Virus record (IMG/VR): IMGVR_UViG_3300027971_002711
Coordinates: 1-41,642 of that record
Length of the DNA: 41,642 bases
Strand: one strand, 5' to 3'
Source: a virus
The notes beneath the pieces are model-generated. The model made no database searches. It was not told the DNA's origin and saw only the letters and a list, made by a program, of their open reading frames with translations. Of the stretch, positions 1,697-27,184 are shown in pieces; positions within the stretch are counted from its first letter, which is position 1, and every line of letters starts with the position of its first letter. A program made the position numbers and the translations under genes.

Positions 1697-1771
1697 ATTT
1701 GTTTCATTGTTTGAGGGGTGTGTAAGATATATATAAAATATAATCACATCTTTTTAAACAATGAAACAAAT
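1697..1771 (+). promoter_or_regulatory. 16-bp inverted repeat enclosing the leader and covering the start codon of the 1761 gene
   Basis: The left arm ATTTGTTTCATTGTTT (1697-1712) is the exact reverse complement of AAACAATGAAACAAAT (1756-1771). The right arm contains the ATG at 1761-1763. Inside the arms, GAGGGGTGTG (1713-1722) can pair with CACATCTTTT (1745-1754) using several G-U pairs and one bulged U at 1755, leaving an A/T loop with TATATATAAAATATAA. In RNA this would bury the start codon in a stem of roughly 25 bp. It could be a translational switch, an RNase III site, or at DNA level an operator flanking a promoter. There is no terminal U tract, so it is unlikely to be a terminator. 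Confidence 0.6.
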
Positions 1772-3638
1772 CTTACTTTTAGCACTGACCTTTCTAACTT
1801 TAAGCGTCTTTGCACAAACATGTCCAACTACGACAGGTAATTCAATTATCATTAAGTCGAATTATGCAGTTGGGAGCTCAATCGCAAATGAATCGAATGC
1901 AATTCTTTGCTATAACAATACTACAACGTCAAAGATTACTGCTATGCAGTTTAAACTTACTTATGACACTATTGCATTCACTAATCCATCAGTATATTTA
2001 TTAACGGCTGATAGTGCAAATCATTACTTACAATTTTATGTAAATAAAGGCACTATCACAATTACATCAGTATACAATGGCACAAATCTTAATTATACTT
2101 ATCCGTCAGGAGAGTTAATTAGAGTAAATTTTAAGCATTCTGCACCAAGCACATTTCAGTATTTAACTTCGATACAGCCATTAGCATTTAATGCAACGTA
2201 TCCAGTTATAGCATCTACTAATGCAGGTAAGGATACTACATTAACTAAATTTAATGCTGGCGGTTTATTTACCAGACCTAGCATTTCTTTCTCAGGAACC
2301 TTTAAAAACGTAACAGGATCATTTACTAAGAACTTATTAGTAGGATTTTGGAAGCAACCAAAAACAGGTGGTGCATGGACATTAGTTGATGTTGACACTA
2401 CCGATTTATTAGGTAAGTTTGGATTCACTCCAATCGTTGATACCACTTTCTGGACTTGTAAAGTAGAAGTTAAAGGTGATACCTTATCTTTAGGTAATGT
2501 GGTTACTACAGCAGACGTTCAAAAGGTAAATCGTTTCGTATTAGGTATTGAGTCGCCAGTTGCATTTGACTTCCATACTTCAGATCCTAATAATTCAGGC
2601 GCAATATCAATCTCCGATGTATATACTATCTTTAATAGAATAGCAGGAAGATTTACTTCATTCTCAGTTCCAGATGTAAGATTCTTTACTGATGTACAAT
2701 TTGGTACCATTACTGATGATAGTTTAACTAATCATAGTTTAGATATACCAGGAACTGCTAATTATTCATATACAATCGTAACGGGTGTAGATTCAATTTT
2801 AGTTTATGTATTAGCAACAGGTGACGTTAATCAGACAGGTTATCGTATGGCGAAATTAGCCCCTATTAAGATCATAAATCCTCTTAATGCTCCTAATTAT
2901 ATAATAGACCAGACAACAGAATATTATGCAGCATTGAACGAAATTGAAATTAAATTACCAACTTTAAATGTAGAAGAAGGTAATTTAGTTAATATTCCAG
3001 TTAATGTTTTAACTAATGGCCAAACTTTAGGCGCAGTTCAATTATCAATGAAATATGATAATACTTTATTGGAGTTTAAAGGTGTTGCGTCAAAAGCAGC
3101 AGCTGCTAAATGGATGACATTTACTAATTCAGCTAATAATGAAGTTGAGTGGGGTGGTGTTGATATGTCAGAAGAAAATAAAATAACTGATGGTCAGCAA
3201 GTTGTCGTTTTACAATTTATCGCTAAAAAATCTAAATCAGAATGGACAGGTAGTCCTTTATATGTAACCCGTAAATTTGTTGGAAATTCATTTGCTAGAG
3301 ACTTAAGTATTAAGCCTACCGATGGTAGAGTTGAAATTATGAAGACAGCTCCAATAGCTAAATTAACAGGAGAAATTAATATATTAGTATATCCTAATCC
3401 TACAAGTGGTATAGTTGCAATTCAATTTAATGTTCCAGATAATAGTAATACTTCAATATATTTCGTAGATATGGAAGGTCGTATAGTATCTAGCATTATA
3501 AATGAGCAAATGCCTAAAGGACAATACAGATATACTGCTAACCTATCTAACCTACCTCCTAGTGCTTATTTAGCAGTTATGGAATGTGATGGTAAAATAC
3601 TTGCAAGTACTAAAGTATTAAATGGCACGACACTATAA
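1761..3638 (+). CDS. Secreted protein with cohesin-like and dockerin-like regions and a T9SS sorting domain, 625 aa
   Basis: A Sec signal peptide (MKQILLLALTFLTLSVFAQ) precedes an N-terminal beta domain with a cohesin-like strand pattern (AMQFKLTYDTIAF). A dockerin-like Ca-binding type repeat follows around residues 255-300 (ADVQKVNRFVLG; DPNNSGAISISDVYTIFNRI), then a second cohesin-like domain around 395-530 (VNIPVNVL; GAVQLSMKYDNTLLEF). The last 85 residues, from Val543 (VYPNPTSG), form a type A T9SS C-terminal domain. T9SS exports such proteins to the Bacteroidota cell surface and usually removes this domain. The gene lies behind an inverted repeat that covers its start. An uncommon cargo for a phage: it would rely on the host secretion machine. 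Confidence 0.85.
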   Translation: MKQILLLALTFLTLSVFAQTCPTTTGNSIIIKSNYAVGSSIANESNAILCYNNTTTSKITAMQFKLTYDTIAFTNPSVYLLTADSANHYLQFYVNKGTITITSVYNGTNLNYTYPSGELIRVNFKHSAPSTFQYLTSIQPLAFNATYPVIASTNAGKDTTLTKFNAGGLFTRPSISFSGTFKNVTGSFTKNLLVGFWKQPKTGGAWTLVDVDTTDLLGKFGFTPIVDTTFWTCKVEVKGDTLSLGNVVTTADVQKVNRFVLGIESPVAFDFHTSDPNNSGAISISDVYTIFNRIAGRFTSFSVPDVRFFTDVQFGTITDDSLTNHSLDIPGTANYSYTIVTGVDSILVYVLATGDVNQTGYRMAKLAPIKIINPLNAPNYIIDQTTEYYAALNEIEIKLPTLNVEEGNLVNIPVNVLTNGQTLGAVQLSMKYDNTLLEFKGVASKAAAAKWMTFTNSANNEVEWGGVDMSEENKITDGQQVVVLQFIAKKSKSEWTGSPLYVTRKFVGNSFARDLSIKPTDGRVEIMKTAPIAKLTGEINILVYPNPTSGIVAIQFNVPDNSNTSIYFVDMEGRIVSSIINEQMPKGQYRYTANLSNLPPSAYLAVMECDGKILASTKVLNGTTL

Positions 3639-3657
3639 TTATTTAAAATAACAAATT

Positions 3658-3993
3658 ATGTCAGAAGAAGTAGAAACCACCAACGACGGCACATGGTCAG
3701 GTCTTAAGAAGACTATCATAGCCACATTAACAACAGTAATTACAGGAGGAGGCGCTTATGTAGCTACAACCTTGTTTTCAGGAAATTCAGATAAAGAAGA
3801 AACTAAAACAGAACAAGTTGCTCAACCAGCAGCAGCTGCACCTGTAATCATTAATTTATCTAATAATAATGAGCAAAAGCAGCAAGCACCTGCCGCAACT
3901 AATACAGTCATTAAAGAAAGAATAATCGAAAAGGCTGCTCCAGTTGAAAAGAAAAAGGAAGAAAAACCTAAAGAAGAAGAAGCACCTTGGTAA
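3658..3993 (+). CDS. Membrane-anchored protein with long charged tail, 111 aa
   Basis: The order is an acidic N-terminus, one membrane helix at about residues 19-41 (TIIATLTTVITGGGAYVATT), then an extended Ala/Pro/Gln-rich linker (QPAAAAP, QKQQAPAATN) and a Lys/Glu-rich end (KKKEEKPKEEEAPW). The layout resembles an inner-membrane anchor with an arm spanning the periplasm, as in TonB-like or i-spanin-like proteins, but no family motif is visible. It is followed by two holin-like genes, so a lysis or envelope role is plausible but unproven. Confidence 0.7.
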   Translation: MSEEVETTNDGTWSGLKKTIIATLTTVITGGGAYVATTLFSGNSDKEETKTEQVAQPAAAAPVIINLSNNNEQKQQAPAATNTVIKERIIEKAAPVEKKKEEKPKEEEAPW

Positions 3994-4017
3994 TCACAAA
4001 TAATAAAAAATAAATAT

Positions 4018-4374
4018 ATGAGTAAGTTAAAAGAAGCAATTAAATCGTTTGTAGGAACAGACGAAATAAAAAACATAGAAGACAAAAATAGATTCTATTT
4101 TATGTTACAACAAATGCAAAACAATAGATGGAAAATAACAGGTATAGTATTATTCTTATTTTTCTTTATTGTATTGGGTATTAATGCAGGTATTATATTT
4201 GGATTAACAGTTGGAGAAGATTGGAAAGAAATGTTATTAATTTTATTAGGAGCATTTGTTGGTAATCTTAATAAAGTAGTAGATTATTGGTTCAATTCAG
4301 AAGATAGAGATAAAATGCTAATTCAAAAAGTGGACGAGGAGGATGGTATATCATTATCAAACACTAAAGACTAA
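4018..4374 (+). CDS. Holin-like membrane protein, 118 aa
   Basis: A charged N-terminal 40 residues precedes two membrane helices, about 42-63 (GIVLFLFFFIVLGINAGIIF) and 71-88 (MLLILLGAFVGNLNKVVDYW), then a charged tail. The second helix ending in V-V-D-Y-W-F plus a short charged stretch resembles many small phage membrane proteins annotated as putative holins (usual pattern V-x-x-Y-Y-F-G-S-S). Holins form inner-membrane lesions that time lysis. No endolysin is recognisable nearby, so the call stays tentative. Confidence 0.6.
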   Translation: MSKLKEAIKSFVGTDEIKNIEDKNRFYFMLQQMQNNRWKITGIVLFLFFFIVLGINAGIIFGLTVGEDWKEMLLILLGAFVGNLNKVVDYWFNSEDRDKMLIQKVDEEDGISLSNTKD

Positions 4375-4379
4375 ATATT

Positions 4380-4625
4380 ATGTTGCAATTCTTTAAAAAT
4401 TTAATGTCAAGTCAATCTGATACTTCTAGTAAAAGATTTGCGGCATTATTTACGTTAATAAATATTATACTTATGGCCTGGGTTGCAACTTTTGCAGCCG
4501 TAGGTCATGTAACTCCAGAATTTATGTTTACTGCATTAGCTGCTGTTGCTGGAGGTGGATTAGGATTAACGATTTTAGAGAAAATATTTAATAAAAATAA
4601 ATCTGATGATGAAACTAAAAAATAA
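4380..4625 (+). CDS. Second holin-like membrane protein, 81 aa
   Basis: A short polar N-terminus with S-S-K-R-F, then two hydrophobic helices at about 20-42 (FAALFTLINIILMAWVATFA) and 49-68 (MFTALAAVAGGGLGLTILEK), and a lysine-rich tail. The S-S-K-R-F lead-in and the L-G-L-T-x-x-E-K-x-F ending match small phage proteins often labelled holin-like. It starts 5 nt after the previous gene, and the next gene overlaps its end by 20 nt. The pair could be holin and antiholin, by inference from tandem order only. Confidence 0.6.
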   Translation: MLQFFKNLMSSQSDTSSKRFAALFTLINIILMAWVATFAAVGHVTPEFMFTALAAVAGGGLGLTILEKIFNKNKSDDETKK

Positions 4626-5340
4626 AGGAGTAGGATTTGATGTGCTAATAATGTTATTATGTATATCATTATTATTAATTATTACTGGTCTAAGTTCTTG
4701 CGGAACTACTAAAACAGAAACATACCAAGCTGATTTTGAAAAGAAACAATCAATTGCTACAGTAAGCGATTATGATGGAACAAAGATTCCTATTCAAATA
4801 TTATCTATTGGTATTACTGATAACGTATATGCAATGTATCCAGTTCTTAAAGAAAAAAATGTTGGAATGGGCGTAACCAATTTAGCATTAGATTATTTAG
4901 AAGGAACTAATAGATTTGAGTTTACAGAAGATAAAGAAGAAATCAAACTTAAGATGGTTAAGCAATTTCAAGCCAGTAAAAAAGGATTTACCGAAAATAA
5001 ATTAGATGGTAAAGGTAAAATTAAATTGGCTAAGTATTTTGTTTATGTTGAAGTATATGATTTTTCTGTAGACGAACAAGAAACCTTCGTTGCTGGAAAA
5101 AAGACATTAGAAGTTACTACTAGATTGGGTTTGCAGATTAGATTTGCAGACGCAGAATCAGGAGAGATTAAAGTTGGCTCAGGAATGGGCGAAGCTACGC
5201 AATACGGTCAATCATTTTTAAAATCTCTTGATATGAAATTTGCCCAATCAACAATTGGTATTTCAACAAGAAAAGCTTTAGAAACAGGATGTTCTAGAGT
5301 GGTAACAAAAATGATTAAAGATGGTGTTTTCGAGAAATAA
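4606..5340 (+). CDS. CsgG-like outer-membrane lipoprotein, 244 aa
   Basis: After a hydrophobic segment there is a lipobox L-S-S-C with Cys32 as the lipidation site. The mature protein follows the CsgG order: I-P-I-Q-I-L-S-I-G-I, a helix with V-T-N-L-A-L-D-Y-L and R-F-E-F, then KLAKYFVYVEVYDF, a long strand pair ending FADAESGEIKVGSGMGEA, and a closing helix TRKALETGCSRVVTKMI. CsgG forms a 36-stranded outer-membrane export channel for curli; other relatives are periplasmic lipoproteins. ATG occurs twice in a row at 4606 and 4609; I keep the first, giving a 20-nt overlap with the holin-like gene. Family call is from pattern, without a search. Confidence 0.65.
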   Translation: MMKLKNKGVGFDVLIMLLCISLLLIITGLSSCGTTKTETYQADFEKKQSIATVSDYDGTKIPIQILSIGITDNVYAMYPVLKEKNVGMGVTNLALDYLEGTNRFEFTEDKEEIKLKMVKQFQASKKGFTENKLDGKGKIKLAKYFVYVEVYDFSVDEQETFVAGKKTLEVTTRLGLQIRFADAESGEIKVGSGMGEATQYGQSFLKSLDMKFAQSTIGISTRKALETGCSRVVTKMIKDGVFEK

Positions 5341-6784
5341 TATTTTAACGTTTATTTTTATAATGATAGGGTTGAGTGTAAAAGCTCAATCCTTTTCATA
5401 CTCTTATATAGATCCTTGTACTGGAGTATCAAAGTCAATTGTCATATCTAGTTTAAATGGTAATTCTCCAATCGTAATGAATTATTATGGTCAAGTAAAA
5501 ACATTTACTACTTCCGAACTTCAAAACGGGTCTTTTGATACCTGGGCTAATGGCATTTATAATAGTTATGGAAAAGGTAATCCTTGTGAACAAGTTGGTA
5601 TTGTTACTATTACAACTAACGTATTAAACGTATCTAATAATATCATATCAAATGTCGTCGCATTAAGCTCAATGCTTACTTCTATAACAGATATCGCATC
5701 TACAGCATCAAGCTCAGTAGCGAACGTTGCAACCTCTGTAACGGGTGGTACTAGTGCAGCAGGTGGAAGTGCAGGAAGCGGAGATAATGGTAATGACAGT
5801 AAAGCTAGTGGAGATAATAAAGGATCAGGATCTACATCAAAAGATTCAGAGAAGACTGAAGCAAAAGATGAAACCAAGACTGACGATCAAAAGAAAGATG
5901 AAACAAAACCAGATAATGAAAAGAAAGAAGAAACAAAACCTGACGAAACTAAGCCAGATAATCAAAAGAAAGACGATACTAAGCCTGATGAAACTAAGCC
6001 GGATAATCAAAAGAAAGATGAAGCAAAATCTAACGACCAAAAATCTGAAGATCAAAAGAAAGAAGAAGCCAAGGTAGAAGAACAAAAGAAAGAAGAAGCA
6101 AAATCAACATCACAAACTACTTCAAAGTCTGCAGCAAAGGCAAAGGCCAGTCAAGACAAACCTTCTATTATGTTAACGGGAGATATTGTAGGTATGCAAA
6201 GAGCCACAGATAATATACAAGATGCTAAAATAACTTCATCTTATATAATGATAGCCGGAGATAAAAAAACATCATTAGGCCTTTCAGTAGACTTTACCGT
6301 AAAAGCTAACGTCGGAAATATATCAGCATTCAAATCTTGGATGACTACTAAAACCACCAGAAAGCATATTGATTTAGTATCTAATAGCGTATCATTATTG
6401 CCTGGTAGTATAAGTAATACAGCTGTATATATTCGTATTGATAATGTAAAGAAAGTAACTGCATTATATGGAATAGGTGGTATGTATGGATCTATGAACC
6501 AAGAACCATTAATTACTGTCGTTGCTATCGGAGGTGGTATGTTTAAAGGTCAAATAACAAACAATATAGATGCGGTAATTATATTAGCGGTAGTATATGT
6601 GCCTTACATGAAATATTATACGGAAAGTATATTTGTAACTAAACCATTAATGCTACCATTCTTTAATATTAACTATAAACTAACTAAGACATTTAGATTT
6701 GGATTAACGGGAGGAACTACTTATTCAGTAACAGAATCTGTCGTTAATTATCAATTATTATTTGGGGCTAAATTAACATTATGA
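5321..6784 (+). CDS. Secreted protein with Lys/Glu-rich repeats and possible beta-barrel end, 487 aa
   Basis: A Sec signal ending V-K-A-Q (about residue 23) precedes a small folded domain with one Cys pair (DPCTG, NPCEQVG), a Ser/Ala/Gly-rich linker, and a stretch of Asp/Glu/Thr/Lys repeats (units such as DETKPDNQKK) at about residues 180-265. The C-terminal 200 residues alternate hydrophobic and polar strands (ALYGIGGMYGSM, FRFGLTGGTTYSV) and end in FGAKLTL, as expected for an outer-membrane beta-barrel. The charged section could span the periplasm or bind peptidoglycan. It overlaps the CsgG-like gene by 20 nt, suggesting coupled expression. No named family. Confidence 0.7.
   Translation: MVFSRNNILTFIFIMIGLSVKAQSFSYSYIDPCTGVSKSIVISSLNGNSPIVMNYYGQVKTFTTSELQNGSFDTWANGIYNSYGKGNPCEQVGIVTITTNVLNVSNNIISNVVALSSMLTSITDIASTASSSVANVATSVTGGTSAAGGSAGSGDNGNDSKASGDNKGSGSTSKDSEKTEAKDETKTDDQKKDETKPDNEKKEETKPDETKPDNQKKDDTKPDETKPDNQKKDEAKSNDQKSEDQKKEEAKVEEQKKEEAKSTSQTTSKSAAKAKASQDKPSIMLTGDIVGMQRATDNIQDAKITSSYIMIAGDKKTSLGLSVDFTVKANVGNISAFKSWMTTKTTRKHIDLVSNSVSLLPGSISNTAVYIRIDNVKKVTALYGIGGMYGSMNQEPLITVVAIGGGMFKGQITNNIDAVIILAVVYVPYMKYYTESIFVTKPLMLPFFNINYKLTKTFRFGLTGGTTYSVTESVVNYQLLFGAKLTL
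5861..6107 (+). repeat. Low-complexity coding repeat (Lys/Asp/Glu/Thr/Pro/Gln)
   Basis: The DNA repeats degenerate units built around GATGAAACTAAGCCAGATAA followed by TCAAAAGAAAG. The clearest two copies lie near 5944-5972 and 5989-6017 and differ by a few silent or conservative changes. Translation gives DETKPDNQKK units that decay at both ends into EEAK and DQKK. Such tracts can change length by slippage, so this protein may vary between isolates. Confidence 0.8.
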
Positions 6785-8412
6785 GATATATAATCTTAAT
6801 ACTTTTATTTATATCAAATTTTTCTTACGCTCAAAACTTTTCATATGCTGGGCGTGTATATGGTATTAATAATGTAGGTGTTCCTGATGTAAAGATTCAA
6901 TTATGGAAACGCGTAACTCCTACACTAACTGGGTTTACATCTCAAACAAATTATAATAATCATTCATATTATAGATCTACAGGGACTGCAGTATGGACTA
7001 CAGCACGAACAAGTTGTGAATCAATGGGAGGCCATTTAGTAACAATGTCTAATGCTGCAGAAAATACATTTGTATATAATACTTGGCCTTCAGGATGGAT
7101 TGGATATTATCAAGATAAGACAGGAGCATTTTATTCTGAACCATATGGCGGGTGGAGATGGACTCAACCTTATCCTATAACAAATCAAAAAGCAGATTAT
7201 GATGTCGCGTCATATACATCCGGAAATACATTAGTGGATATAAAGGGTTCAATTAATGCTACTCTTTACAATACGCCCGTCTATACAAGTACTGCAGGTA
7301 GTTATTTAACCTTTAACGGAACTAATCAATATGCTATAACAAATAACTTAGCATCTAAAGTACCTGGTAAAACTACTACATTATTGGCTTGGATATATCC
7401 AACCGGAAATGGAGTTATTATAACTGAATTAGGATCTGGAAGTACTTCATCAGGATGGCATGACTCTCAAATAGAAATTACGGGTGGTAATACTTTAAGA
7501 GTTGCTATTTGGAATATGTCTGGGAATTTATCTACATCAATAACTCTTAATGCTTGGCACTTAGTAGGATTTACTTATGACGGAACAACATTGACAGGAT
7601 ATAAAGATGGTGTTAGTTTTGGAACATCTACAGTAAGTAGACAAGATCCTATATCTAATGGAAATGGATTATATTACGGTATCGGATTAACAGAAACAAC
7701 AAATTTAGGATCAGGTGCCTATGGCTCGTTTAGATTAGCCGACTTTCAAGTTTATTCGGCAGCAATGTCAGCAGATGAAATAGATCAAGCATATGTATCT
7801 AGTTCGTGGAGATTTGGAATATATCCTTATTCTAATTGGAATGGTGGTGAGCCAAACAATTCTGGTAGTGAAGATTATACACAATTTGTTAGTGGAGGTA
7901 AATGGAATGATTTAAATAATAACAGTGCATATCAATACGTATTGGAATTTGATTATATAATAACGACAGGACCTTGGACATTAGATACGACAGTAAAAAC
8001 AAATTCAGTAGGAGATTATTCATTTTTAAGAGCATCTAATCCATCTATAGAATGGAAAATAGTGCTTGATACTTTATCTATTAGTCCGCCCGAAAAAATA
8101 AATGCTGTAGATAATAACGGTCTTATATTATCTAAACGATCAATATTAGGTAAAGATTATTTTAGATATGATTTAAATATAGATGGAATATTTTCTATAT
8201 CAGACTTATATCTTCAATTGCAAAAGAAAAATAGCGCATCATGGTTAATGTCTGCATATAAGATAATAACTCAAACAGAAAATGCCACTCTTCAAACAAC
8301 TACATCAGATTTACGATTATCTATACTAGGAAGTCAAAATTATTCTTTAAATCCGTTAGTTAATGGAGGGGTTACTAATATTTATATAATAAGAACAGGA
8401 TATGAAAATTAA
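6781..8412 (+). CDS. Secreted C-type lectin interrupted by a LamG domain, with dockerin-like end, 543 aa
   Basis: The signal peptide ends S-Y-A-Q (about residue 18). A carboxypeptidase-regulatory-like strand set (YAGRVYGINNVGVPDVKIQL) follows. A C-type lectin fold begins near 62 (ARTSCESMGGHLVTMSNAAE, WIGYYQ, WRWT) but is broken at about 135-343 by a LamG/concanavalin-type domain (YLTFNGTNQYA, LLAWIYPTG, WHLVGFTYDG, ADFQVYSAAMSADEI). The lectin resumes with NWNGGEPNN and KWNDLNN, the EPN and WND sugar-binding motifs. The usual disulfide cysteines are mostly absent. The C-terminus has a dockerin-like DLNIDGIFSISDLY like that of the 1761 protein. It probably binds glycans at the cell surface. 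It overlaps the previous gene by 4 nt. Confidence 0.8.
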   Translation: MRYIILILLFISNFSYAQNFSYAGRVYGINNVGVPDVKIQLWKRVTPTLTGFTSQTNYNNHSYYRSTGTAVWTTARTSCESMGGHLVTMSNAAENTFVYNTWPSGWIGYYQDKTGAFYSEPYGGWRWTQPYPITNQKADYDVASYTSGNTLVDIKGSINATLYNTPVYTSTAGSYLTFNGTNQYAITNNLASKVPGKTTTLLAWIYPTGNGVIITELGSGSTSSGWHDSQIEITGGNTLRVAIWNMSGNLSTSITLNAWHLVGFTYDGTTLTGYKDGVSFGTSTVSRQDPISNGNGLYYGIGLTETTNLGSGAYGSFRLADFQVYSAAMSADEIDQAYVSSSWRFGIYPYSNWNGGEPNNSGSEDYTQFVSGGKWNDLNNNSAYQYVLEFDYIITTGPWTLDTTVKTNSVGDYSFLRASNPSIEWKIVLDTLSISPPEKINAVDNNGLILSKRSILGKDYFRYDLNIDGIFSISDLYLQLQKKNSASWLMSAYKIITQTENATLQTTTSDLRLSILGSQNYSLNPLVNGGVTNIYIIRTGYEN

Positions 8413-8854
8413 ATTATTATTTTTGATATTAGCATTGCCGCTATTATCTTTAGGACAATGTATGTATGTAGATTCCGTATACAATAAAACAGGATTCGAC
8501 GCTATTGAAAATAGAAGTATTCAATTTGGCGTTAAGCAACTAACAGAAGAAATTTTACAAGATAATGGATATGACATTTGTAAAGAAGGAAATCCGGTAT
8601 TCGTAGAAATGGTTTATATGGGTCTTCCAGAAAATACCTTTAGAATAGCAGGATTTGCTTTACAAAACAAAATAACTGAAATTAAAGTTAAAGTTATTAT
8701 AGCAGGTCGTATTAAAGAAGGTACAGGTGTATATAAAACATCAGTTAATGCAATGATGCTAGAAATACAAGAAAATATTCCTTTTAAGCAAAGTGTTCTA
8801 TCAAATGCAATTAAATTAGCATTAATAGATGCTTTAAAGCCTACTTCTTTTTAA
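8402..8854 (+). CDS. Small secreted protein, 150 aa
   Basis: A Sec signal (MKIKLLFLILALPLLSLGQ) leads into a 130-residue alpha/beta domain: helix FGVKQLTEEILQDNGYDI, strands VFVEMVYMGLP and EIKVKVIIAGRI, and a closing helix LSNAIKLALIDAL. That helix-strand-strand-helix order is faintly like the CsgG-type protein four genes upstream, so it may be a truncated relative or periplasmic partner. Two Cys (C20, C60) may pair. It overlaps the lectin gene by 11 nt and ends 14 nt inside the convergent minus-strand gene. Not recognised as a named family. Confidence 0.65.
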   Translation: MKIKLLFLILALPLLSLGQCMYVDSVYNKTGFDAIENRSIQFGVKQLTEEILQDNGYDICKEGNPVFVEMVYMGLPENTFRIAGFALQNKITEIKVKVIIAGRIKEGTGVYKTSVNAMMLEIQENIPFKQSVLSNAIKLALIDALKPTSF

Positions 8855-10297: not shown

Positions 10298-10735
10298 ATG
10301 ATAGAGAAGCCTAAAATTTTAAAAATAGGAATTGCTGGAGATATAATTTATGAAAATGCAAGAAAAATTAAAGAAACGTTATTTCAGTTAAAGAACAGCC
10401 TTAAAGGACAAGAATTTATAGTATATTCATTAGGAAGTATACATGGAGCAGATAAATACATTAAAAAATATTGCTTAGAGCTTAATATTACTTATAAAGA
10501 ATTTACTCCATTATTTCTTCCAGTAACATTATATTCAGTATTTCCGCCAGAGATGCATAATCAAAAATGGCATCCAGCAATAGCAGATAGGCACATAAGA
10601 AACTTCTTGAAATCCTGCAAAAAATTTATTATATTTATTAATAAGGATGAAGTATCAAGTAAGTTTAATATGAAGTTAATTAAGGCTCAAACTACAAAAC
10701 TAAAATCACCAATAGTATTTATTAATGAAGGTTAA
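10298..10735 (+). CDS. SLOG/Rossmann-like protein, 145 aa
   Basis: The protein opens with a strand-loop (ILKIGIAGD), then a helix, a second strand (EFIVYSLGSIHGADKYIKKY) with the G-x-x-x-G-A-D pattern of DUF2493/SLOG proteins, I-T-Y-K-E-F-T-P, an R-x-x-R-N helix (RHIRNFLKSC) and the strand KKFIIFINK. SLOG domains bind nucleotides or nucleotide-derived ligands; DprA and lysine decarboxylase-like relatives are examples. The catalytic role here is not visible. It sits directly after the nuclease gene, which may point to DNA metabolism. Confidence 0.6.
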   Translation: MIEKPKILKIGIAGDIIYENARKIKETLFQLKNSLKGQEFIVYSLGSIHGADKYIKKYCLELNITYKEFTPLFLPVTLYSVFPPEMHNQKWHPAIADRHIRNFLKSCKKFIIFINKDEVSSKFNMKLIKAQTTKLKSPIVFINEG

Positions 10736-10741
10736 AAAAAG

Positions 10742-10770
10742 AACCGGTTTTAAATACTAGGACGATAATT
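10742..10770 (+). promoter_or_regulatory. AACCGGTT palindrome with A/T box before the glycan island
   Basis: The palindrome AACCGGTT (10742-10749) lies in the 49-nt gap between 10735 and 10785 and is followed by TTAAATACTAGGACGATAAT and then ATTATATAAAATAAG before the ATG. The CCGGTTTTA string resembles the CGGTTGTTTA box at 76 and 39845. It is the only gap at the head of the glycosyltransferase run and is the natural place for its promoter or an operator. The evidence is position plus motif likeness. Confidence 0.35.
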
Positions 10771-10784
10771 ATATAAAATAAGTT

Positions 10785-12188
10785 ATGACAAACACCAAGA
10801 AAACAAAAATCCTCTTCTTGTGCGACGATCCTAGATTCAGTTCAGGTATTGCCACGATGGCCAGAGAAATTATTTTAGGTACCTGCCACGTATTTGATTA
10901 CGTTGTCGTAGGAGGCGCCTTAACCCACCCTGAAGAAGGACAAATTATTGATCTTTCAGAATCTATTAAAACAGATACGGGTAAGATTGCAAATGTAAAA
11001 TTATATCCAGTATCAGGATATGGAACACCAGATTTAGTAAGACATTTAATTACTGCAGAAAATCCTGATTGCATTCTTCATTTTACCGATCCTAGATATT
11101 GGATATGGTTATATAATATGGAAAATGAAATCCGTCAGCGCATTCCTATTACGTATTTAAATATTTGGGATTGTCCACCACCACCAATGTATAATAAACC
11201 ATATTATCAATCATGTGATTTATTAATGAATATATCTAAACAAACTTATGGTATTGTTCATAAAGTATTAGATGGTTGCAATTATGAAGATTGGCAAATT
11301 ACCTATGTTCCGCACGGTATAAACGAATCTCATTTCTTTCCAATATCAAAAGACTCGGAAGGGTATAAAAGCGTCTTAGACTTAAGGAAATCATTCTTAA
11401 CGGGCAAGAAAAACAAAGATGTTATTCCTGAATTCGTATTTTTATATAATTCAAGAAACATAAGAAGAAAACAAACAGCGGATATTATATTAGCATATAA
11501 AACATTCTGTGATAAGTTACCTAAAGAGAAAGCGTCTAAATGTGTATTAGTTCTTCATACTCAACCAATAGATGAAAATGGAACTAACTTAATTGAAGTT
11601 AAAGATGTTCTTTGCCCTGATTATAATGTTAGCTTTACAAACAGAGCCTTTAATGTTCATGAAATGAATACTTTATATAATGCATCTGACGTATTAATAA
11701 ATATTTCAAGTAATGAAGGATGGGGATTATCAGCAACAGAAGCTATGATGTCAGGTATATGTACTATTGTTAATATGACAGGTGGTCTTCAGGATCAAGT
11801 TGGATTAATGAAAGATGATGGTACTTTATTAACAGCAGATGATTATAAAGAAAAGGATTGGCACTCAAATCACGATGGAAGATATACTAAATGGGGCAAT
11901 TGGTCAAAACCAATCATTCCAAGCAATCGTTCTATTCAAGGCTCTGTACCTACTCCTTATATCTTTGATGATAGAGTTAAGTTTGAAGACGTAGCTGAGG
12001 CTATGCTTGAATGGTATAATACTCCAGAAGAAACTAGAATACAATATGGAATAGAAGCTCGTCAATACTTAATAGATAATAAAATGAGCGCAATAGGTAT
12101 GTGTGATAATGTTATTACAGATATTACTTCTTGCTTAGAAAATTTCGAACCTAAAGAAAGATTTACATTAACTAAATTAACCAAATAA
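10785..12188 (+). CDS. GT-B glycosyltransferase, GT4-like, 467 aa
   Basis: The N-terminal Rossmann half starts ILFLCDDPRFSSGIATMARE, with a flexible glycine loop for the acceptor. The linker strand VPHGIN leads into the C-terminal half with YNSRNIRRKQ, the nucleotide-sugar contacting motif N-x-R-x-x-x-R-K-Q, and the end motif S-S-N-E-G-W-G-L-S-A-T-E-A-M-M (about residues 308-322), whose two Glu form the E-x7-E signature of GT4 enzymes. It should move a sugar from an activated donor with retention. Length is normal. First gene of the glycan island; donor and acceptor not predictable. Confidence 0.9.
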   Translation: MTNTKKTKILFLCDDPRFSSGIATMAREIILGTCHVFDYVVVGGALTHPEEGQIIDLSESIKTDTGKIANVKLYPVSGYGTPDLVRHLITAENPDCILHFTDPRYWIWLYNMENEIRQRIPITYLNIWDCPPPPMYNKPYYQSCDLLMNISKQTYGIVHKVLDGCNYEDWQITYVPHGINESHFFPISKDSEGYKSVLDLRKSFLTGKKNKDVIPEFVFLYNSRNIRRKQTADIILAYKTFCDKLPKEKASKCVLVLHTQPIDENGTNLIEVKDVLCPDYNVSFTNRAFNVHEMNTLYNASDVLINISSNEGWGLSATEAMMSGICTIVNMTGGLQDQVGLMKDDGTLLTADDYKEKDWHSNHDGRYTKWGNWSKPIIPSNRSIQGSVPTPYIFDDRVKFEDVAEAMLEWYNTPEETRIQYGIEARQYLIDNKMSAIGMCDNVITDITSCLENFEPKERFTLTKLTK

Positions 12189-12200
12189 ATAAAAATAAAT

Positions 12201-12548
12201 ATGTTTCACAGAATCATTAATTGGATTACGAATCCATTCAAAAAAGAAGAAGAAAAAATCACATTACCAAATGTAGCACCTTTATCAAAAGAAGTAAAAA
12301 ATAAACTTATATCTGATTTAATTGAGGTAGCAAAGGAGTTTAAAGAAAAGAAAGAAGTAGAGTTAGATACATTACCTTTAACAAGAGTATCAAATGAAAC
12401 TAAAGAAAAGATTGCTACTTTAGTAAAAGAAGATTTTAAATCAAAGAATACTTTAAACGTTGAGCACCAAGTAGTAATTACAGAATCTGCTCCTAAAAAG
12501 AAAAAGCGTTATTACAAAAAGAAAAAAGCAACGGATTCATCTAAATAA
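12201..12548 (+). CDS. Lysine-rich hypothetical protein, 115 aa
   Basis: The N-terminus MFHRIINWITNPFKKEEE could form a short amphipathic membrane-contacting helix. The centre is a charged helix (KNKLISDLIEVAKEFKEKKE) and a second one with similar 'LTRVSNETKEKIATLVKE' spacing to the first (LSKEVKNKLISDLIEVAKE), so it may be an internal duplication. The tail KKKKRYYKKKKATDSSK is strongly basic and could bind nucleic acid or lipid. It lies between two glycosyltransferase genes with 12- and 14-nt gaps. No family known. Confidence 0.65.
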   Translation: MFHRIINWITNPFKKEEEKITLPNVAPLSKEVKNKLISDLIEVAKEFKEKKEVELDTLPLTRVSNETKEKIATLVKEDFKSKNTLNVEHQVVITESAPKKKKRYYKKKKATDSSK

Positions 12549-12562
12549 TCTATAAATTAGTT

Positions 12563-13897
12563 ATGACATCAAATAAAAAGACTATAGTTCTCCAGGCCCC
12601 GGTAAATACAGCATCGGGGTATGGAGCCAGAAGTAGGGATATTGCGAAAGCATTAATAGAGAATGAAAGCTATGATGTTACAATTATTCCTACTAGATGG
12701 GGTGATACACCTCAAAATTTCTTGAATGATAAAGATCCTTTGCATCAAGAAATACTTAAGAGATTTGCAACTCCTAATCAACAAATACCTCAACCTGATA
12801 CCTTTATTCAGATTACAGTTCCTAATGAATTTCAAAAAGTCGGGACGCGCAAATCTATTGGTATTACAGCAGGTATGGAAACTACATTAGTAGATGCGGC
12901 CTGGATAGAAGGAAATAATCGTATGGATATGGTTCTTTGTTCTTCAAAGCATTCAGTAGAAGTAATGAAATCTAGTAAGTATGATAAAATGGATCAGAAC
13001 ACTAAACAAAAGGTTGGAGAATTAATTTCTGAGAAGGAGATTGATATTTTATTTGAAGGAATAGATTTTAATATCTATAAGAAGATAGAAATCATTAATC
13101 CTAATGTAAATGCTTTTATTTCACAAATACCAGAAACATTCTGCTTTTTAGTTGTTGGGCATTGGCTTCAAGGACAAATGTGGGAAGACAGAAAAAATAT
13201 GGGAGGTACTATATATACTTTCTTAAATGCTTTTAAAGGTAAGAAGAATGTACCTGCATTGATACTTAAAATTAGTTGTGGCTCATATTCTGAAATAGAT
13301 CGTCAAGAAATTCAAAAGCGCGTTAATCAAATTAAAAAGATGTTTGATGATGAAGGAATAAGAATACCTAATATTTACTTATTACATGGTGATTTAACGG
13401 ACGAAGAAATGAATTCATTATATAATCATCCAAAGGTAAAAGCTATGGTGTCTATGACTAAAGGAGAAGGATTTGGAAGACCGTTAGCAGAATTTGCAGT
13501 TACAGGAAAACCAATTATCGTTTCTCAATATTCAGGTCATATGGATTTTCTTCCTAATGAGATGGTTATGTATGTTCCAGGTGAAATGAGACCAGTTCAT
13601 GCGTCAGCTGTAATTCCTAATTTAATATTAGCACAATCGCAATGGTTTATGCCTAATCCAGCAATCGTTGAAAGATATTTAAATGATACCTTTGAAAATT
13701 ATAAAGTAAAATTAGAATCATCTCGTAAGCTAACTAAATACTTAAAAGATAATTTTTCTTTTGATAAGATGAAAGAAATACTTTATAATTATATCGATGC
13801 TCCTGTTAAGGTAATAGCACCGAAACCACAAATGCAACAATTGAAGTTACCTCAAATCAAAAAAATTGAGCTACCCAAATTAAAGAAAATAGACTAA
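12563..13897 (+). CDS. GT-B glycosyltransferase, GT4-like, 444 aa
   Basis: It starts with VLQAPVNTASGYGARSRDIA, a GT-B N-terminal acceptor loop, and has LFEGIDFNIY at the domain linker. Nucleotide-binding strands VVGHWLQGQMWEDRKN and a C-terminal T-K-G-E-G-F-G-R-P-L-A-E-F-A motif (about residues 298-311) carry the E-x7-E pair of retaining GT4 enzymes. The last 35 residues add Pro/Lys/Leu repeats (QLKLPQIKKIELPKLKKI), an unusual tail that may tether the enzyme or a partner. It is a paralogue by layout of the 10785 enzyme but differs widely in sequence. Confidence 0.88.
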   Translation: MTSNKKTIVLQAPVNTASGYGARSRDIAKALIENESYDVTIIPTRWGDTPQNFLNDKDPLHQEILKRFATPNQQIPQPDTFIQITVPNEFQKVGTRKSIGITAGMETTLVDAAWIEGNNRMDMVLCSSKHSVEVMKSSKYDKMDQNTKQKVGELISEKEIDILFEGIDFNIYKKIEIINPNVNAFISQIPETFCFLVVGHWLQGQMWEDRKNMGGTIYTFLNAFKGKKNVPALILKISCGSYSEIDRQEIQKRVNQIKKMFDDEGIRIPNIYLLHGDLTDEEMNSLYNHPKVKAMVSMTKGEGFGRPLAEFAVTGKPIIVSQYSGHMDFLPNEMVMYVPGEMRPVHASAVIPNLILAQSQWFMPNPAIVERYLNDTFENYKVKLESSRKLTKYLKDNFSFDKMKEILYNYIDAPVKVIAPKPQMQQLKLPQIKKIELPKLKKID

Positions 13898-13898
13898 T

Positions 13899-14402
13899 AT
13901 GATAAAACCAAACTTAACAGAAACCATTCCTTGCCCTTGCAAAAATGGCGGTAATGCATTTAAAGATTCATTCGATAAAATCGAAGTTTCTTTATGCAGC
14001 ACTTGCGGATTAATGACTACTTCTCAGTATCAAGAAGATTCAGAACAAGTATTAAAGATTAAAGAATTATGTCCTCCCGAAATAATGCTTATAAGTATAT
14101 TAGATGATAATAACTTTAGATGGTTTCCATCGGTAATACCTTATTCAAAGAAAGGTGTTATTTATGCAGAGCCTAAAGGTAAGAATCAATTTAATTGGTA
14201 TGTAGCTCCAGTAGTTAAAGTAGCGGAAGCAGAAGGTTATTTATATATTAATCCTGCTACCAATACTCCTTATGAAAGACGTATTGCGCAAGAGCAAGCT
14301 ATTATATTTGATAAGAATGAATTTATTAAAGCATTGGAGTTATCAGAAATAGACGAAGCTAAGGAATTATTGAACCGAATTAAACAAATATTTAATAATT
14401 AA
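13899..14402 (+). CDS. Zinc-ribbon-like hypothetical protein, 167 aa
   Basis: Cys12, Cys14, Cys33 and Cys36 (PCPCKNG and LCSTCGLM) suggest a small metal-binding knuckle at the N-terminus. The rest is mixed alpha/beta with two proline-rich stretches (LCPPEIML, FRWFPSVIPYSKKG) and ends in a helical hairpin (FIKALELSEIDEAKELLNRI). It begins 1 nt after the glycosyltransferase stop codon. Similar-looking small proteins occur in large phages, but I cannot name a family or function. Confidence 0.7.
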   Translation: MIKPNLTETIPCPCKNGGNAFKDSFDKIEVSLCSTCGLMTTSQYQEDSEQVLKIKELCPPEIMLISILDDNNFRWFPSVIPYSKKGVIYAEPKGKNQFNWYVAPVVKVAEAEGYLYINPATNTPYERRIAQEQAIIFDKNEFIKALELSEIDEAKELLNRIKQIFNN

Positions 14403-14406
14403 TATT

Positions 14407-14658
14407 ATGAACGAATCACAATTTATACAATGGCTTAAGGGCTATTTAGATGGAAGAAAAGTATCTGCAGGAGAAAATGCCTTATCTTTTGAGTTAGCTA
14501 CGATCAAGCATAATTTAAGTATGGTATATACAGATCCTAACCCTAAATATAATATTGAGTCTAGAGATACGAGTGGGTATAAGATCTATGGTGATGGTAT
14601 TGATGGTCGAACAACAAACTCATCTAATACAGTAAATAAAACAATACTAAAAGGGTAA
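14407..14658 (+). CDS. Hypothetical protein, 83 aa
   Basis: The N-terminal half is a helix pair with F-I-Q-W-L-K-G-Y-L-D-G and a later KHNLSMVY, a pattern seen in many small phage proteins of unknown role. The C-terminal half is Gly/Asn/Thr/Ser-rich and probably disordered (YGDGIDGRTTNSSNT). The last base of its TAA is the first base of the next ATG (TAATG), so the following tagged phosphoesterase is probably translationally coupled to it. Confidence 0.7.
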   Translation: MNESQFIQWLKGYLDGRKVSAGENALSFELATIKHNLSMVYTDPNPKYNIESRDTSGYKIYGDGIDGRTTNSSNTVNKTILKG

Positions 14659-15212
14659 TGATAAAACTTAAAAGCTTACTTAAAGAAGCTAAACCAGAAA
14701 CCCATGAATATGGATGTGTAATGTTATATTTTAACTTTCCAGAGATAAATACTATTCATCATCTTATCGATCAAAATGATATCTATACTAATGATAATGA
14801 TCCTTCTTATGGATTAGAAGATGAACCTCATATAACATTATTATATGGACTGCATCCTGAAGTAACAGTAGATCAAGTGAAACGCGTATTAGACGGTCAT
14901 GTTTATTCTGCTTGCAATATATTTAATGCGTCAGTATTTAACAACGAAAAGTTTGATGTTTTAAAGTTTGATGTAAGAGGTGAAGGTTTAAATGATACTA
15001 ATACAGCGTTAAAGGCATATCCTTATACAAGTAATTTCCCTGATTATCATCCTCATCTTACAATTGGATATCTTAAAAAAGGAACAGCGCAAAAATATGC
15101 TGACAAGATTAGTAAGATAATGCCTAAAGGATATCAGTTAGTTCCTAAGTATGCAGTATATTCTGAATCAGAAGGAACAAAAAATCAATTACCAATACAT
15201 ACAGATCAATAA
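14658..15212 (+). CDS. 2H phosphoesterase (LigT-like) with N-terminal capsid-targeting-like tag, 184 aa
   Basis: Two H-x-T motifs, H58-I-T60 and H133-L-T135, each followed by an aliphatic/Tyr strand, define the 2H phosphoesterase fold. The family includes RNA 2'-3' cyclic phosphodiesterases, 2'-5' oligoadenylate phosphodiesterases and phage Acb1, which destroys cyclic nucleotide signals of CBASS immunity. The first ten residues MIKLKSLLKE, then Ala, match the tag shared by the proteins at 35.3-39.8 kb and lie outside the catalytic fold. If the tag is a head-targeting sequence, this enzyme would be packaged and delivered at infection. Which substrate it uses cannot be read from sequence. Confidence 0.85.
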   Translation: MIKLKSLLKEAKPETHEYGCVMLYFNFPEINTIHHLIDQNDIYTNDNDPSYGLEDEPHITLLYGLHPEVTVDQVKRVLDGHVYSACNIFNASVFNNEKFDVLKFDVRGEGLNDTNTALKAYPYTSNFPDYHPHLTIGYLKKGTAQKYADKISKIMPKGYQLVPKYAVYSESEGTKNQLPIHTDQ

Positions 15213-15539
15213 ATGAATAAAGATAATAATACAACACCAGAGACTATATATGTAGTTCAAGCATCGTCTGGAGAATATGATTCATATCACGAATGGGTGG
15301 TAGGAGTTTTTGATAATCTTAGAATGGCGAATACTTTAAAAAATACTTTAGATGCGAAAGCAGAAAAAATAAAATCTGAATGCCCAATTAAATATTCGAC
15401 TAATTTGACTACATCTCAAGTTATGTCTGAAGAAGATGAAAAAATATATTGGGATTACTATACATTACATCAAACCGAAATGGAATGGGTTGGAGTACGT
15501 ATAGAAGAATGTAATTTAAATATACCAATAGAATACTAA
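15213..15539 (+). CDS. Hypothetical protein, 108 aa
   Basis: A compact alpha/beta protein: strand IYVVQASSGEYDSYHEWVVG, an F-D-N-L-R-M-A helix that continues to about residue 55 (KNTLDAKAEKIKSE), and an acidic C-terminal section with W-D-Y-Y and EWVGVRIEEC. The G-E-Y-x-x-Y opening is shared by small phage proteins of unknown function. It starts at the base after the phosphoesterase stop and is co-transcribed with it. No catalytic motif is visible. Confidence 0.65.
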   Translation: MNKDNNTTPETIYVVQASSGEYDSYHEWVVGVFDNLRMANTLKNTLDAKAEKIKSECPIKYSTNLTTSQVMSEEDEKIYWDYYTLHQTEMEWVGVRIEECNLNIPIEY

Positions 15540-16175
15540 ATGAATATATCATATTGCATAACAGTATGCGACGAGCATGAAGAATTAGATTTGTTATTAA
15601 ATCATATGTTGCCTTTATTAGAGGATGATGATGAAATTATAATACTTAGAGACATAACAAAAACTAATAGCAAGGTTACTAAGGTAATACTTAAACATAC
15701 ACCATTATTTGGTGATCGTATACGAACTATCGAAACTTCACTTAATAAAGACTTTGCGGCATTTAAAAACAACTTTATAGACGCTGCAAATGGCGAGTAT
15801 ATATTTCAAATTGATGCTGACGAAGTACCTAATGAATTCTTAATAGAAAATATAAAACCAATCCTTAACATTAATAGAGATATAGATGTATTTTATATTC
15901 CTAGAGTTAATAAAGTAATTGGCATTACTCCAGAACACATTCAAAAATGGGGTTGGAGGTTTGATGAGAAAGAAAGAATAAACTATCCTGATCCTCAAAT
16001 GCGTTTATTTAAAACAAATAAAGGAATTAAGTGGAAGAATAAAGTTCATGAAGTATTAGATGGTTATGAAACTATGACTACACTTCCTTGGGATGAGCAT
16101 GAAGACTTTTGCCTTTATCATATTAAGACAATTAAAAAACAAGAAGATCAAAATAATTTTTATGACAAGATATGA
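15540..16175 (+). CDS. GT-A glycosyltransferase family 2-like, 211 aa
   Basis: The opening strand ISYCITVCDEHEELDLLLNH is the nucleotide-sugar pocket of the GT2 fold. The D-x-D metal site is in FQIDADEVP (Asp92, Asp94). Later WGWRFDEKERINYPDPQMRLF and IKWKNKVHEV match the acceptor region of WaaE/KdtX-like transferases (W-x-x-x-V-H-E). The chain is short for the family, and the C-terminus overlaps the next gene by 4 nt (ATGA). It probably adds a hexose or heptose to a surface glycan. Confidence 0.85.
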   Translation: MNISYCITVCDEHEELDLLLNHMLPLLEDDDEIIILRDITKTNSKVTKVILKHTPLFGDRIRTIETSLNKDFAAFKNNFIDAANGEYIFQIDADEVPNEFLIENIKPILNINRDIDVFYIPRVNKVIGITPEHIQKWGWRFDEKERINYPDPQMRLFKTNKGIKWKNKVHEVLDGYETMTTLPWDEHEDFCLYHIKTIKKQEDQNNFYDKI

Positions 16176-16918
16176 TAACGCATAAAAGTATAGGGTATTC
16201 AGGTAGATTAGGAAATCAAATGTTCCAATATGCTGCTTTAAAGTCAATAGCAATGTTAATGGATCAAGATATAGTCTTACCAAACCATACTGCTATTAAA
16301 AAAGATGGGGCTTATAACTTTACTGATAATACTTGGATACCTTATAAATTAGATTTATTAGATTGCTTTGATTTAAATTGTTCGTTTGAGAGCATTAATG
16401 ATGATAAAGGAATTATTGAAATAGATGGTTATTTTCAAAGCTATAAGCATCTTATAGGTATTGAGGAAGACATAATTAATGAATTTGCCTTTAAGCCTCA
16501 TATACTTAATAAATGCACTGATATCATTAAAGATTATACCAATACCGTTTCTATTCATATAAGAAGAGGAGATTATGTTAATCATCCTAATTATTGGGTA
16601 GTAACTCCAGAATATATTCAAGCCGCCTTAGAACAATTTTCTGATAATAAATATACTTTTTTAATATTCTCAGATGATATCCAATGGTGTAAAGAAATAT
16701 TTCCAGAAGGAGTTATCTTTATGGAAGGAAATAATCAATTTGAAGACTTATGTTTAATGTCATTATGTAATCATAATATCATTGCTAATAGTTCTTTTAG
16801 TTGGTGGAGTGCATTCTTAAACAAAAATAAAAACAAACGAGTGATAGCCCCGCAAATGTGGTATTCAGAATATAAAGACCTTTCTGATTTATATCCTCAA
16901 CAATGGTTACAACTATAA
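16172..16918 (+). CDS. GT11 alpha-1,2-fucosyltransferase-like, 248 aa
   Basis: The N-terminus shows G-R-L-G-N-Q-M-F-Q-Y-A (residues 11-21), the first GT11 motif. The second, H-I-R-R-G-D-Y (129-135), contains the Arg residues that bind GDP-fucose. S-S-F-S-W-W-S-A near residue 210 is the third. Family members transfer fucose from GDP-fucose, forming an alpha-1,2 link usually to galactose. Length is near 250-300 aa. ATGA coupling with the gene before. The GDP-fucose supply would come from the host or from the SDR gene at 23541. Confidence 0.93.
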   Translation: MITHKSIGYSGRLGNQMFQYAALKSIAMLMDQDIVLPNHTAIKKDGAYNFTDNTWIPYKLDLLDCFDLNCSFESINDDKGIIEIDGYFQSYKHLIGIEEDIINEFAFKPHILNKCTDIIKDYTNTVSIHIRRGDYVNHPNYWVVTPEYIQAALEQFSDNKYTFLIFSDDIQWCKEIFPEGVIFMEGNNQFEDLCLMSLCNHNIIANSSFSWWSAFLNKNKNKRVIAPQMWYSEYKDLSDLYPQQWLQL

Positions 16919-16919
16919 T

Positions 16920-18380
16920 ATGTATTTAAAAAGTAATTTTATGCCTGCAGAACTTTATAATAAGTTCGTATGTGATTTACCAGAATTTAAAGATAAGCCC
17001 ATTAGCATTTTTAATGATTATCAACCTTCGTATGAAGAATTAGCAATTAATCCTTATAATATTTTAATTGTATTAGAGCCTAATCAATTATTTGGTATTC
17101 ATGATTGGGTAATTCAAAACTCTCATTTATTTAGCGCAATACTTACTTGGAGCCAACCAATTTTAGATTCTTGCGAAAATTCAATGTTACTTCCATTCGG
17201 TACGACATTTTTACATAGTAAAGATAAGTATAAGGAATTAGCTTCAATGAAAAAAGAATTTGAAGTATCATTTTTATGTGGCATCAAAAATAAAATAGAA
17301 GGACAACAATTAAGACAAAGAATCTATAAAAAAGGAGATCTTATAAATATACCTAAGAAATGGTATTATACATTAGAAGGTCCTAAAGATCCTTGTTATG
17401 AAAGTTCAATGTTCCATATTTGTGTAGAGAACTCTAAAAATAAAGGTTATTTTTCAGAAAAGATAGTAGATGCTTTGATTTCTAAAACAATTCCATTATA
17501 TTATGGATGTTCAGATATAGAAGAGTATTTCGATAGCAGAGGATTTTTTACATTTAATACTGAAGATGAATTAGTTACATTAGTTAATTCATTAACTGAA
17601 AAGGATTATGAAGACAGAAAAGAATATATCGAAATAAATTATCGTAAAGCAATATACTATGCTGAATACTTTATGAGATTTAAAGATTTATTACAAGAAA
17701 TTATAATATTAAACGAAATACGACCTATGAAAAAAGAATTAGTTATATCTTTATATGATAGACCATTAGATTGGATTAAAGATATTAATGATGATGTTAA
17801 GATCACTGTATATCGAAAAGGTAATATAACATCACACCCTAATGAAATATATTTAGAGAATAATGTAGGTCGAGACGTACATACATTTTTTTATCATATA
17901 GTTAATAATTACGATAATTTAGCAGATTATACATTCTTTTCACAGGATTATCCATTTGATCATATAGGATCATATAAAGAAATTATTAATGGAAATGAAG
18001 AAGTTTGGAATAAATGGTCCAGTCATCACTTTGAAGGTTATTGGGGATATCATTGGAATAACATTGGTACGATGTGGAGTTTATATGATTCTAAACAATT
18101 TGGAGGTAAGATTTTATGGTGTCATCCTAACGGATATCCGCAACATGAAGGATTGCCTTTAGAACAAATATGGAATCAAATATTTGATATTCCAATCTTA
18201 GATGAGATAGAATTTACGCCAGGAGGTCATTTTAGTATCTCCAGAGAACAAATTCTTTTAAAAGATTTGGAATATTATAAAAAAATACTTATATTATTAG
18301 AAACCGAAGAATATGCGCCTTGGGCGATAGAAAGATTTGAACCATATATTTTTCATTCATCAACTAAAATAAAACTATGA
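16920..18380 (+). CDS. GT10-like fucosyltransferase fused to a DUF3431 domain, 486 aa
   Basis: The N-terminal half (about 1-260) contains F-H-I-C-V-E-N-S-K-N-K-G-Y-F-S-E-K (163-179) followed by IPLYYG, the GT10 alpha-1,3-fucosyltransferase core, where F-x-x-x-x-E-N and the K-x-x-D contacts hold GDP-fucose. The C-terminal half (about 268-486) carries DUF3431 features: V-G-R-D-V-H-T-F-F-Y-H, TFFSQDYPFDHI and PGGHFSISREQIL. DUF3431 proteins are probable glycosyltransferase relatives. A bifunctional fused enzyme is likely. The gene overlaps the next by 4 nt. Confidence 0.85.
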   Translation: MYLKSNFMPAELYNKFVCDLPEFKDKPISIFNDYQPSYEELAINPYNILIVLEPNQLFGIHDWVIQNSHLFSAILTWSQPILDSCENSMLLPFGTTFLHSKDKYKELASMKKEFEVSFLCGIKNKIEGQQLRQRIYKKGDLINIPKKWYYTLEGPKDPCYESSMFHICVENSKNKGYFSEKIVDALISKTIPLYYGCSDIEEYFDSRGFFTFNTEDELVTLVNSLTEKDYEDRKEYIEINYRKAIYYAEYFMRFKDLLQEIIILNEIRPMKKELVISLYDRPLDWIKDINDDVKITVYRKGNITSHPNEIYLENNVGRDVHTFFYHIVNNYDNLADYTFFSQDYPFDHIGSYKEIINGNEEVWNKWSSHHFEGYWGYHWNNIGTMWSLYDSKQFGGKILWCHPNGYPQHEGLPLEQIWNQIFDIPILDEIEFTPGGHFSISREQILLKDLEYYKKILILLETEEYAPWAIERFEPYIFHSSTKIKL

Positions 18381-19663: not shown

Positions 19664-19878
19664 TGAAAACTGATCTTCAATCATCTATTAAGAAGCAAGG
19701 AGAGTATGTTACTCAAATCATTCATTTTGTTGGAGGAGAGAAGCGTACTTTTGAAAACATAAAATCATCCACCGTTAAGCAAGGTCAATTTACTAAGTTA
19801 AATACTATTGACGGTAGGATGATTTTAATAAATGATAAGAACGTTTTATGTATAGAAGTATTTCCAGAAAATGAATAA
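19663..19878 (+). CDS. Hypothetical protein, 71 aa
   Basis: A small beta-rich soluble protein (TQIIHFVGGEKRTFENIK, TVKQGQFTKLNTIDGRMILI, NVLCIEVFPENE). The strand-turn-strand layout with evenly spaced hydrophobics suggests a small barrel or Sm-like shape, but no family is recognised. Its ATG shares a base with the stop of the dehydratase (TAATG) and it overlaps the next SDR gene by 8 nt, so it is locked into the island operon. Confidence 0.65.
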   Translation: MKTDLQSSIKKQGEYVTQIIHFVGGEKRTFENIKSSTVKQGQFTKLNTIDGRMILINDKNVLCIEVFPENE

Positions 19879-21239: not shown

Positions 21240-21249
21240 TAAATTAGGA

Positions 21250-21269
21250 TATATTAAAATAATATATTA
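21250..21269 (+). promoter_or_regulatory. Tandem TATATTA boxes in an island gap
   Basis: In the 39-nt gap before ATG 21279, TATATTA occurs at 21250-21256 and 21263-21269, 13 nt apart. TATATTA also precedes genes at 114, 10298, 30216, 31368 and 39891. It could be the -10-like box of internal phage promoters. No GGTT box is present here, so confidence is low. Confidence 0.3.
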
Positions 21270-21278
21270 TATTACAGT

Positions 21279-22052: not shown

Positions 22053-22060
22053 TATAATAA

Positions 22061-27183: not shown

Positions 27184-27184
27184 C

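Follow-up and report, generated by a model that had tools for sequence, protein, structure and literature searches.

Phages are known to alter the surfaces of their hosts by means of enzymes and small membrane proteins. Among the systems closest to the locus described here are two sets of phage-encoded export components. Cargo of the type IX secretion system (T9SS) has been reported for Cryophage (Bellas 2020, PMC7468147) and for a crAss-BACON ORF (PMC6949934), the cargo comprising endoglucanase, GH39 and PA14 proteins, while CsgG and CsgF have been reported for pelagimyophages (PMC7029224) and for phage Melnitz (PMC9004378). T9SS cargo and CsgG have each been described from phages before; for the combination found here, T9SS cargo with cohesin and dockerin domains in a block with a CsgG-like gene, we found no report from a phage in the open-access literature. 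The window, that is, the whole stretch of DNA that was analysed, comprises 41,642 nt and corresponds to positions 1 to 41,642 of the IMG/VR virus record IMGVR_UViG_3300027971_002711. A block of genes at 1761-8854 begins with a gene for a 625-aa protein, hereafter the scaffold (Table 1). We hold with middling confidence that this block is a system for display on the surface of the infected Bacteroidota cell, and our analysis suggests that the virus coats that cell with swappable sugar-binding proteins.

The block has points in common with each of the described systems. Cryophage likewise encodes T9SS sorting-domain proteins, which are variable and one of which has PA14, and the crAss-BACON ORF resembles the scaffold in being a phage-encoded protein with a T9SS domain; in the consulted parts of these two descriptions (PMC7468147, PMC6949934), there is no mention of a cohesin, a dockerin or a CsgG-like block. 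The pelagimyophages and Melnitz are T4-like phages in which a CsgG-family outer-membrane lipoprotein adjoins exported proteins, as in the block (PMC7029224, PMC9004378), but they have a true CsgG by Pfam (4.8e-53), CsgF and curlin repeats, whereas the block has the CsgG fold only, a cohesin scaffold instead of curlin, and no CsgF that we could find. Cellulosome scaffoldins also bear cohesin and dockerin domains on exported proteins, and their division into anchor and adaptor has a counterpart in Flavobacterium phage immuto (see below); the block differs from a cellulosome in having lectins and no enzymes, in attachment through the T9SS as opposed to an S-layer or sortase, and in being borne by a virus.

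Although no virion structural gene was identified in the 41.6-kb window, the scaffold gene is a phage gene. Viral contigs with a relative of it number in the hundreds, every one of the four records of the cultured phage immuto contains a relative, and a T4-type major capsid gene matching that of immuto is present in each of the ten large block-carrying viral records tested, with a fragmentary match in one of them (G007). Host contamination is therefore ruled out. A first genome scan with gp015 of immuto as query returned no relative; a wider scan recovered 248 viral loci related to the block.

The original prediction was that the 625-aa protein carries a type A T9SS sorting domain at its C-terminus and two cohesin-like regions on either side of a dockerin-like region. 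The sorting domain was confirmed by PF18962 (aa 543-611, E = 1.9e-9, 38.1 bits against a cut-off of 27) and by TIGR04183, which, with a cut-off of 23, scored 27.6 bits in a genome search and 22.4 bits, just under the cut-off, in hmmscan. The second cohesin lies well above the curated cut-off of PF00963 (36.6 against 24.1 bits); the first lies below it in the window, and the matching region of one relative just reaches it with 24.1 bits. Among 20 family members with 37-77% identity to the window scaffold, all 20 have the sorting domain and 18 have a cohesin, so these matches are not due to chance. The dockerin is more elusive: Dockerin_1 (PF00404) has no Pfam match in the window scaffold sequence alone, and is detected at E ≤ 0.01 in nine of the 20 family members, with one record above the curated cut-off. 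At profile positions 251-309, the family profile matches a dockerin of known structure from a scaffoldin of the cellulosome (4uyp, E = 6e-5), and it also matches the scaffoldin cohesin 4ums weakly (E = 0.035). The domains had been read correctly.

Confidence varies along an AlphaFold2 model of the scaffold (mean pLDDT 70.8): it is high in the N-terminal cohesin region and in the sorting domain, moderate in the second cohesin, and low over much of the dockerin region; Foldseek searches with this model returned many cohesin structures among the best matches. The signal peptide, with predicted cleavage between MKQILLLALTFLTLSVFA and Q, was read from the sequence by eye and is of a typical Bacteroidota type, and our own heuristic finds a signal-peptide pattern in 37 of 39 scaffold relatives. 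In eight of ten large phage records there is exactly one sorting-domain protein per record, each located inside the block.

Table 1 Features of the scaffold gene and of the other genes of the block (positions in the window).
Feature	Position	Strand	Basis
Scaffold protein, 625 aa: signal peptide, cohesin-like 1, CnaB-like/dockerin-like region, cohesin 2, T9SS domain	1761..3638	+	
Signal peptide, aa 1-19	1761..1817	+	by eye
First cohesin, weak here	1914..2150	+	19.2 bits, E = 3.3e-5, below cut-off
Dockerin-like region, about aa 245-300	2493..2660	+	borders by eye; low model confidence
Second cohesin, aa 396-495	2946..3245	+	PF00963, E = 6.2e-9
Type A T9SS C-terminal sorting domain	3387..3614	+	PF18962, TIGR04183 (genome search)
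Protein with one transmembrane (TM) segment, long Pro/Asn-rich tail and conserved C-terminal Trp	3658..3993	+	topology by eye
Small membrane protein, kept in part of the loci, position varies	4018..4374	+	topology by eye
Small membrane protein, possibly holin-like	4380..4625	+	by eye only
CsgG-fold lipoprotein, lipobox LSSC	4606..5340	+	fold comparison; lipobox by eye
Protein with signal peptide, two-Cys N-terminal domain, low-complexity linker and putative outer-membrane barrel	5321..6784	+	alignment
Exported lectin: C-type lectin domain split by LamG, then CnaB and dockerin-like tail	6781..8412	+	
Small exported protein, remote relative of the CsgG-like protein	8402..8854	+	hhalign, E = 8.4e-11

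The scaffold had initially been treated as a lone oddity, but it belongs to a conserved block of several genes. In the 45 loci that were found via the CsgG-like gene and had enough flanking sequence, the scaffold, the barrel protein and the small exported protein were present in all 45, the TM protein in 42 and the lectin in 39, always on one strand. Conversely, the CsgG-like gene and the barrel gene were present in all 66 loci found via the scaffold. Raw counts of the lectin among scaffold-found loci are inflated because the lectin profile also matches the scaffold; when each ORF was assigned to its best family, the lectin was present in 66 of 73 such loci, short ones included. One lineage, accounting for six of the 45 loci, has no recognisable lectin, and the scaffolds tested there also lack the sorting domain (L038:6428-8607 and its relatives L035, L039, L046 and L047). 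A 122-aa lipoprotein beside the scaffold in this lineage (L038:8239-8607), which by eye alone appeared to be a candidate sorting domain, was rejected as not significant (E = 0.097).

The block stays together as a unit in differing genomic contexts. Its flanking genes in the window are a DUF3310 gene on one side and a PD-(D/E)XK nuclease gene on the other; in immuto these two genes adjoin each other elsewhere and the block follows nucleotide-metabolism genes, and in other lineages it stands beside ThyA, RecA/SSB or endolysin-type genes. Promoter and terminator scans showed no excess over shuffled sequences. Signal-peptide patterns were detected by our heuristic in the scaffold, the CsgG-like protein, the barrel protein, the lectin and the small exported protein, and were absent from the TM protein. 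Searches of the block members against PHROGs gave no useful function: the possibly holin-like protein had no significant match there, and weak matches pointing to a Zot-like identity of the TM protein were dismissed as low-complexity chance. The C-terminal part of the 5321-6784 protein is a putative outer-membrane barrel, with no support from Pfam. Upstream of the block, a gene at 647-1066 encodes a small putative lipoprotein with a signal sequence ending in FGSC and no Pfam match. Directly after the block, the region 10785-30184 contains glycosyltransferase and aminotransferase genes that are partly related to immuto gp169-gp181.

Kinship of the 4606-5340 lipoprotein with CsgG is indicated by fold comparison together with a marginal Pfam match. 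With a model of mean pLDDT 71.4, CsgG ranked first in Foldseek (2.2e-7 to 4uv2), and comparison with 6l7a gave a Z score of 13.1 over 165 residues with an rmsd of 3.3, against Z 10.8 for the best other fold; PelC and other ring lipoproteins share this fold in structure comparison. Pfam CsgG (PF03783) matches two of 14 relatives (best E = 8.5e-5, hmmscan), and no record of the family reaches its curated cut-off. A PDB profile search with the family alignment returned nothing, and the family profile did not match the single CsgG sequence of Pelagibacter (SAR11) phage HTVC008M. Compared by eye with that CsgG, the two pore hairpins are shorter and more polar, and thus the pore of the block protein remains putative. 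In the curli cluster of HTVC008M (L101), the gene at 10638-11963 encodes a protein with PA14 and curlin repeats, adjoined by a FecR-domain protein. On our reading, the pairing of an exported PA14-type protein with a CsgG-fold lipoprotein is common to two lineages of T4-like phages.

The original prediction had also proposed that the scaffold assembles with other surface proteins, and the exported lectin of the block supports this as a prediction, as hhalign shows its tail and the scaffold's CnaB-dockerin region to be homologous (E = 9e-30). The front of the lectin varies widely. Across 27 relatives, Pfam detects a C-type lectin domain in 17, LamG in six and PA14 in five, and it turns over while its neighbours are near identical: between L023 and L024 the scaffold is 99%, the CsgG-like protein 100% and the lectin 37% identical, and the corresponding values between L003 and the window are 97%, 91% and 48%. 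This pattern fits a recognition module. In the window, LamG (7315-7782) is inserted inside the C-type lectin domain, and the near-identical block of L003 has no LamG. An annotated structural protein in immuto has a LamG similar to this insert (E = 4e-7), a likeness which hints that binding domains are exchanged between virion proteins and exported ones.

A cultured phage also carries the whole block. Flavobacterium phage vB_FspM_immuto (Immutovirus, NC_055915; Hoetzinger 2021, as cited in PMC11500664) is of the T4 type and has the block as gp013-gp019, which match the scaffold and most of its neighbours; the only names given there in its record are those of one protein with a lectin domain and one with a cohesin domain. 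Its arrangement differs from that of the window in that the scaffold is split over two genes, the lectin lies upstream and the genome position is different. The protein gp015 has a cohesin and the sorting domain, both above Pfam cut-offs, gp014 is homologous to the N-terminal half of the scaffold with no significant Pfam match of its own, and gp013 is the lectin with a dockerin-like tail. Both gp014 and gp015 have their own signal peptide. By analogy with the cellulosome, gp015 looks like an anchor and gp014, which is cohesin-like and dockerin-like, looks like an adaptor.

From these features we propose the following mechanism for surface display. Sec would carry the scaffold through the inner membrane, and its sorting domain would then direct it to the host T9SS for passage through the outer membrane; on sequence grounds this route is strongly predicted, and export by the host T9SS, which had already been proposed, is supported as a prediction by the retention of the sorting domain in all 20 family members. 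The scaffold would then remain on the surface and display its cohesins, a retention that we infer from the behaviour of type A T9SS cargo. The exported lectin would dock on a cohesin via its dockerin-like tail, and additional copies of the scaffold may be recruited by the dockerin that each carries. Passage of the lectin across the outer membrane, or its retention there, may be assisted by three proteins whose candidacy for this role is speculative: the CsgG-fold lipoprotein, the small protein related to it and the putative barrel. Infected cells or their remains would thereby hold particular cells or glycans through a quickly swapped lectin front; adhesion of the infected cells or of debris is the likely benefit and masking of the phage's own receptor the nearest alternative use, and we regard these two as the leading readings of the purpose. 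The original prediction had listed a block to superinfection, adhesion and the spread of lysis products as possible uses.

Surface assembly is supported by immuto, because its putative anchor, its putative adaptor and its lectin are separate exported proteins, as such assembly would predict. Other observations count against the display model. The lectin has no sorting domain, individual sequences match dockerin weakly and the structural model is poor in the dockerin region. Moreover, cohesin and dockerin domains can act within one protein, or bind no partner dockerin or cohesin at all. The lineage that has neither the lectin nor the sorting domain keeps the rest of the block, and the core function may therefore be something else. 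A more ambitious form of the display model, in which the block is a virus-encoded cellulosome-like organelle with a cohesin scaffold, interchangeable dockerin-tagged lectins and the CsgG-fold lipoprotein and barrel as the lectin exporter, so that the phage would determine what its dying host sticks to, is one that we put forward only tentatively.

The same parts could serve another purpose if the exported lectins covered those glycans, on infected cells as well as debris, that the phage itself uses as receptor; progeny would then be spared loss and other phages kept from adsorbing. We consider this unlikely as the main role. The likeness between the LamG of the window lectin and the immuto structural protein hints at a shared type of target, but this LamG type is common and the lectin of immuto has no such match. 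The glycosyltransferase-type cluster after the window block indicates that the phage invests in surface change; on the other hand, the fast swapping of lectin fronts would require matching swaps of receptor.

It is improbable that the block is instead an outer-membrane lysis module, with the TM, holin-like and CsgG-like proteins as holin or spanin parts and the scaffold and lectin merely keeping wall or debris together. Endolysin-type genes do lie near the block in several lineages, and a gating role in lysis has been proposed for CsgG/CsgF of phage Melnitz (PMC9004378). Lysis has no need, however, for a cohesin, a dockerin, a sorting domain or a lectin, neither in the window nor in immuto is the block next to a lysis gene, and no block protein matches a holin or spanin. 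Tail fibres typically bear lectin-type domains with fast turnover, and Ig-like domains are frequent on virions, which would fit proteins that end on virions, with the fold of the sorting domain being a mere Ig-like domain. This possibility we judge very improbable: the signal peptides direct the proteins out of the cytoplasm, where virions assemble, and immuto has its head and tail genes at about 124-160 kb, away from the block at 10.5-16.4 kb, both of which argue against a virion location.

If the display model is true, a dedicated surface scaffold that uses host type IX secretion and swappable lectins would go well beyond the surface alterations known from phages. It would also give concrete form to the idea of 'sibling capture', which was put forward in connection with the curli genes of SAR11 phages (PMC7029224). 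As the block is widespread and occurs in a cultured phage-host pair, the question is directly testable.

Searches of 395 Bacteroidota genomes gave different results for the two profiles used. The scaffold profile, which also detects T9SS sorting domains of the hosts, had matches in 293 of these genomes; among the matches listed, most covered the sorting domain alone, and those in G337 and G227 extended into the cohesin region. The CsgG-like profile matched solely a phage-like contig of one assembly. The one hit in a bacterial genome (L083) is contig 291 of a Bacteroidetes MAG, 254 kb long and binned as bacterial; it has both the block and, about 75 kb away, a T4-type capsid gene, and it is therefore most likely a large phage contig inside the MAG.
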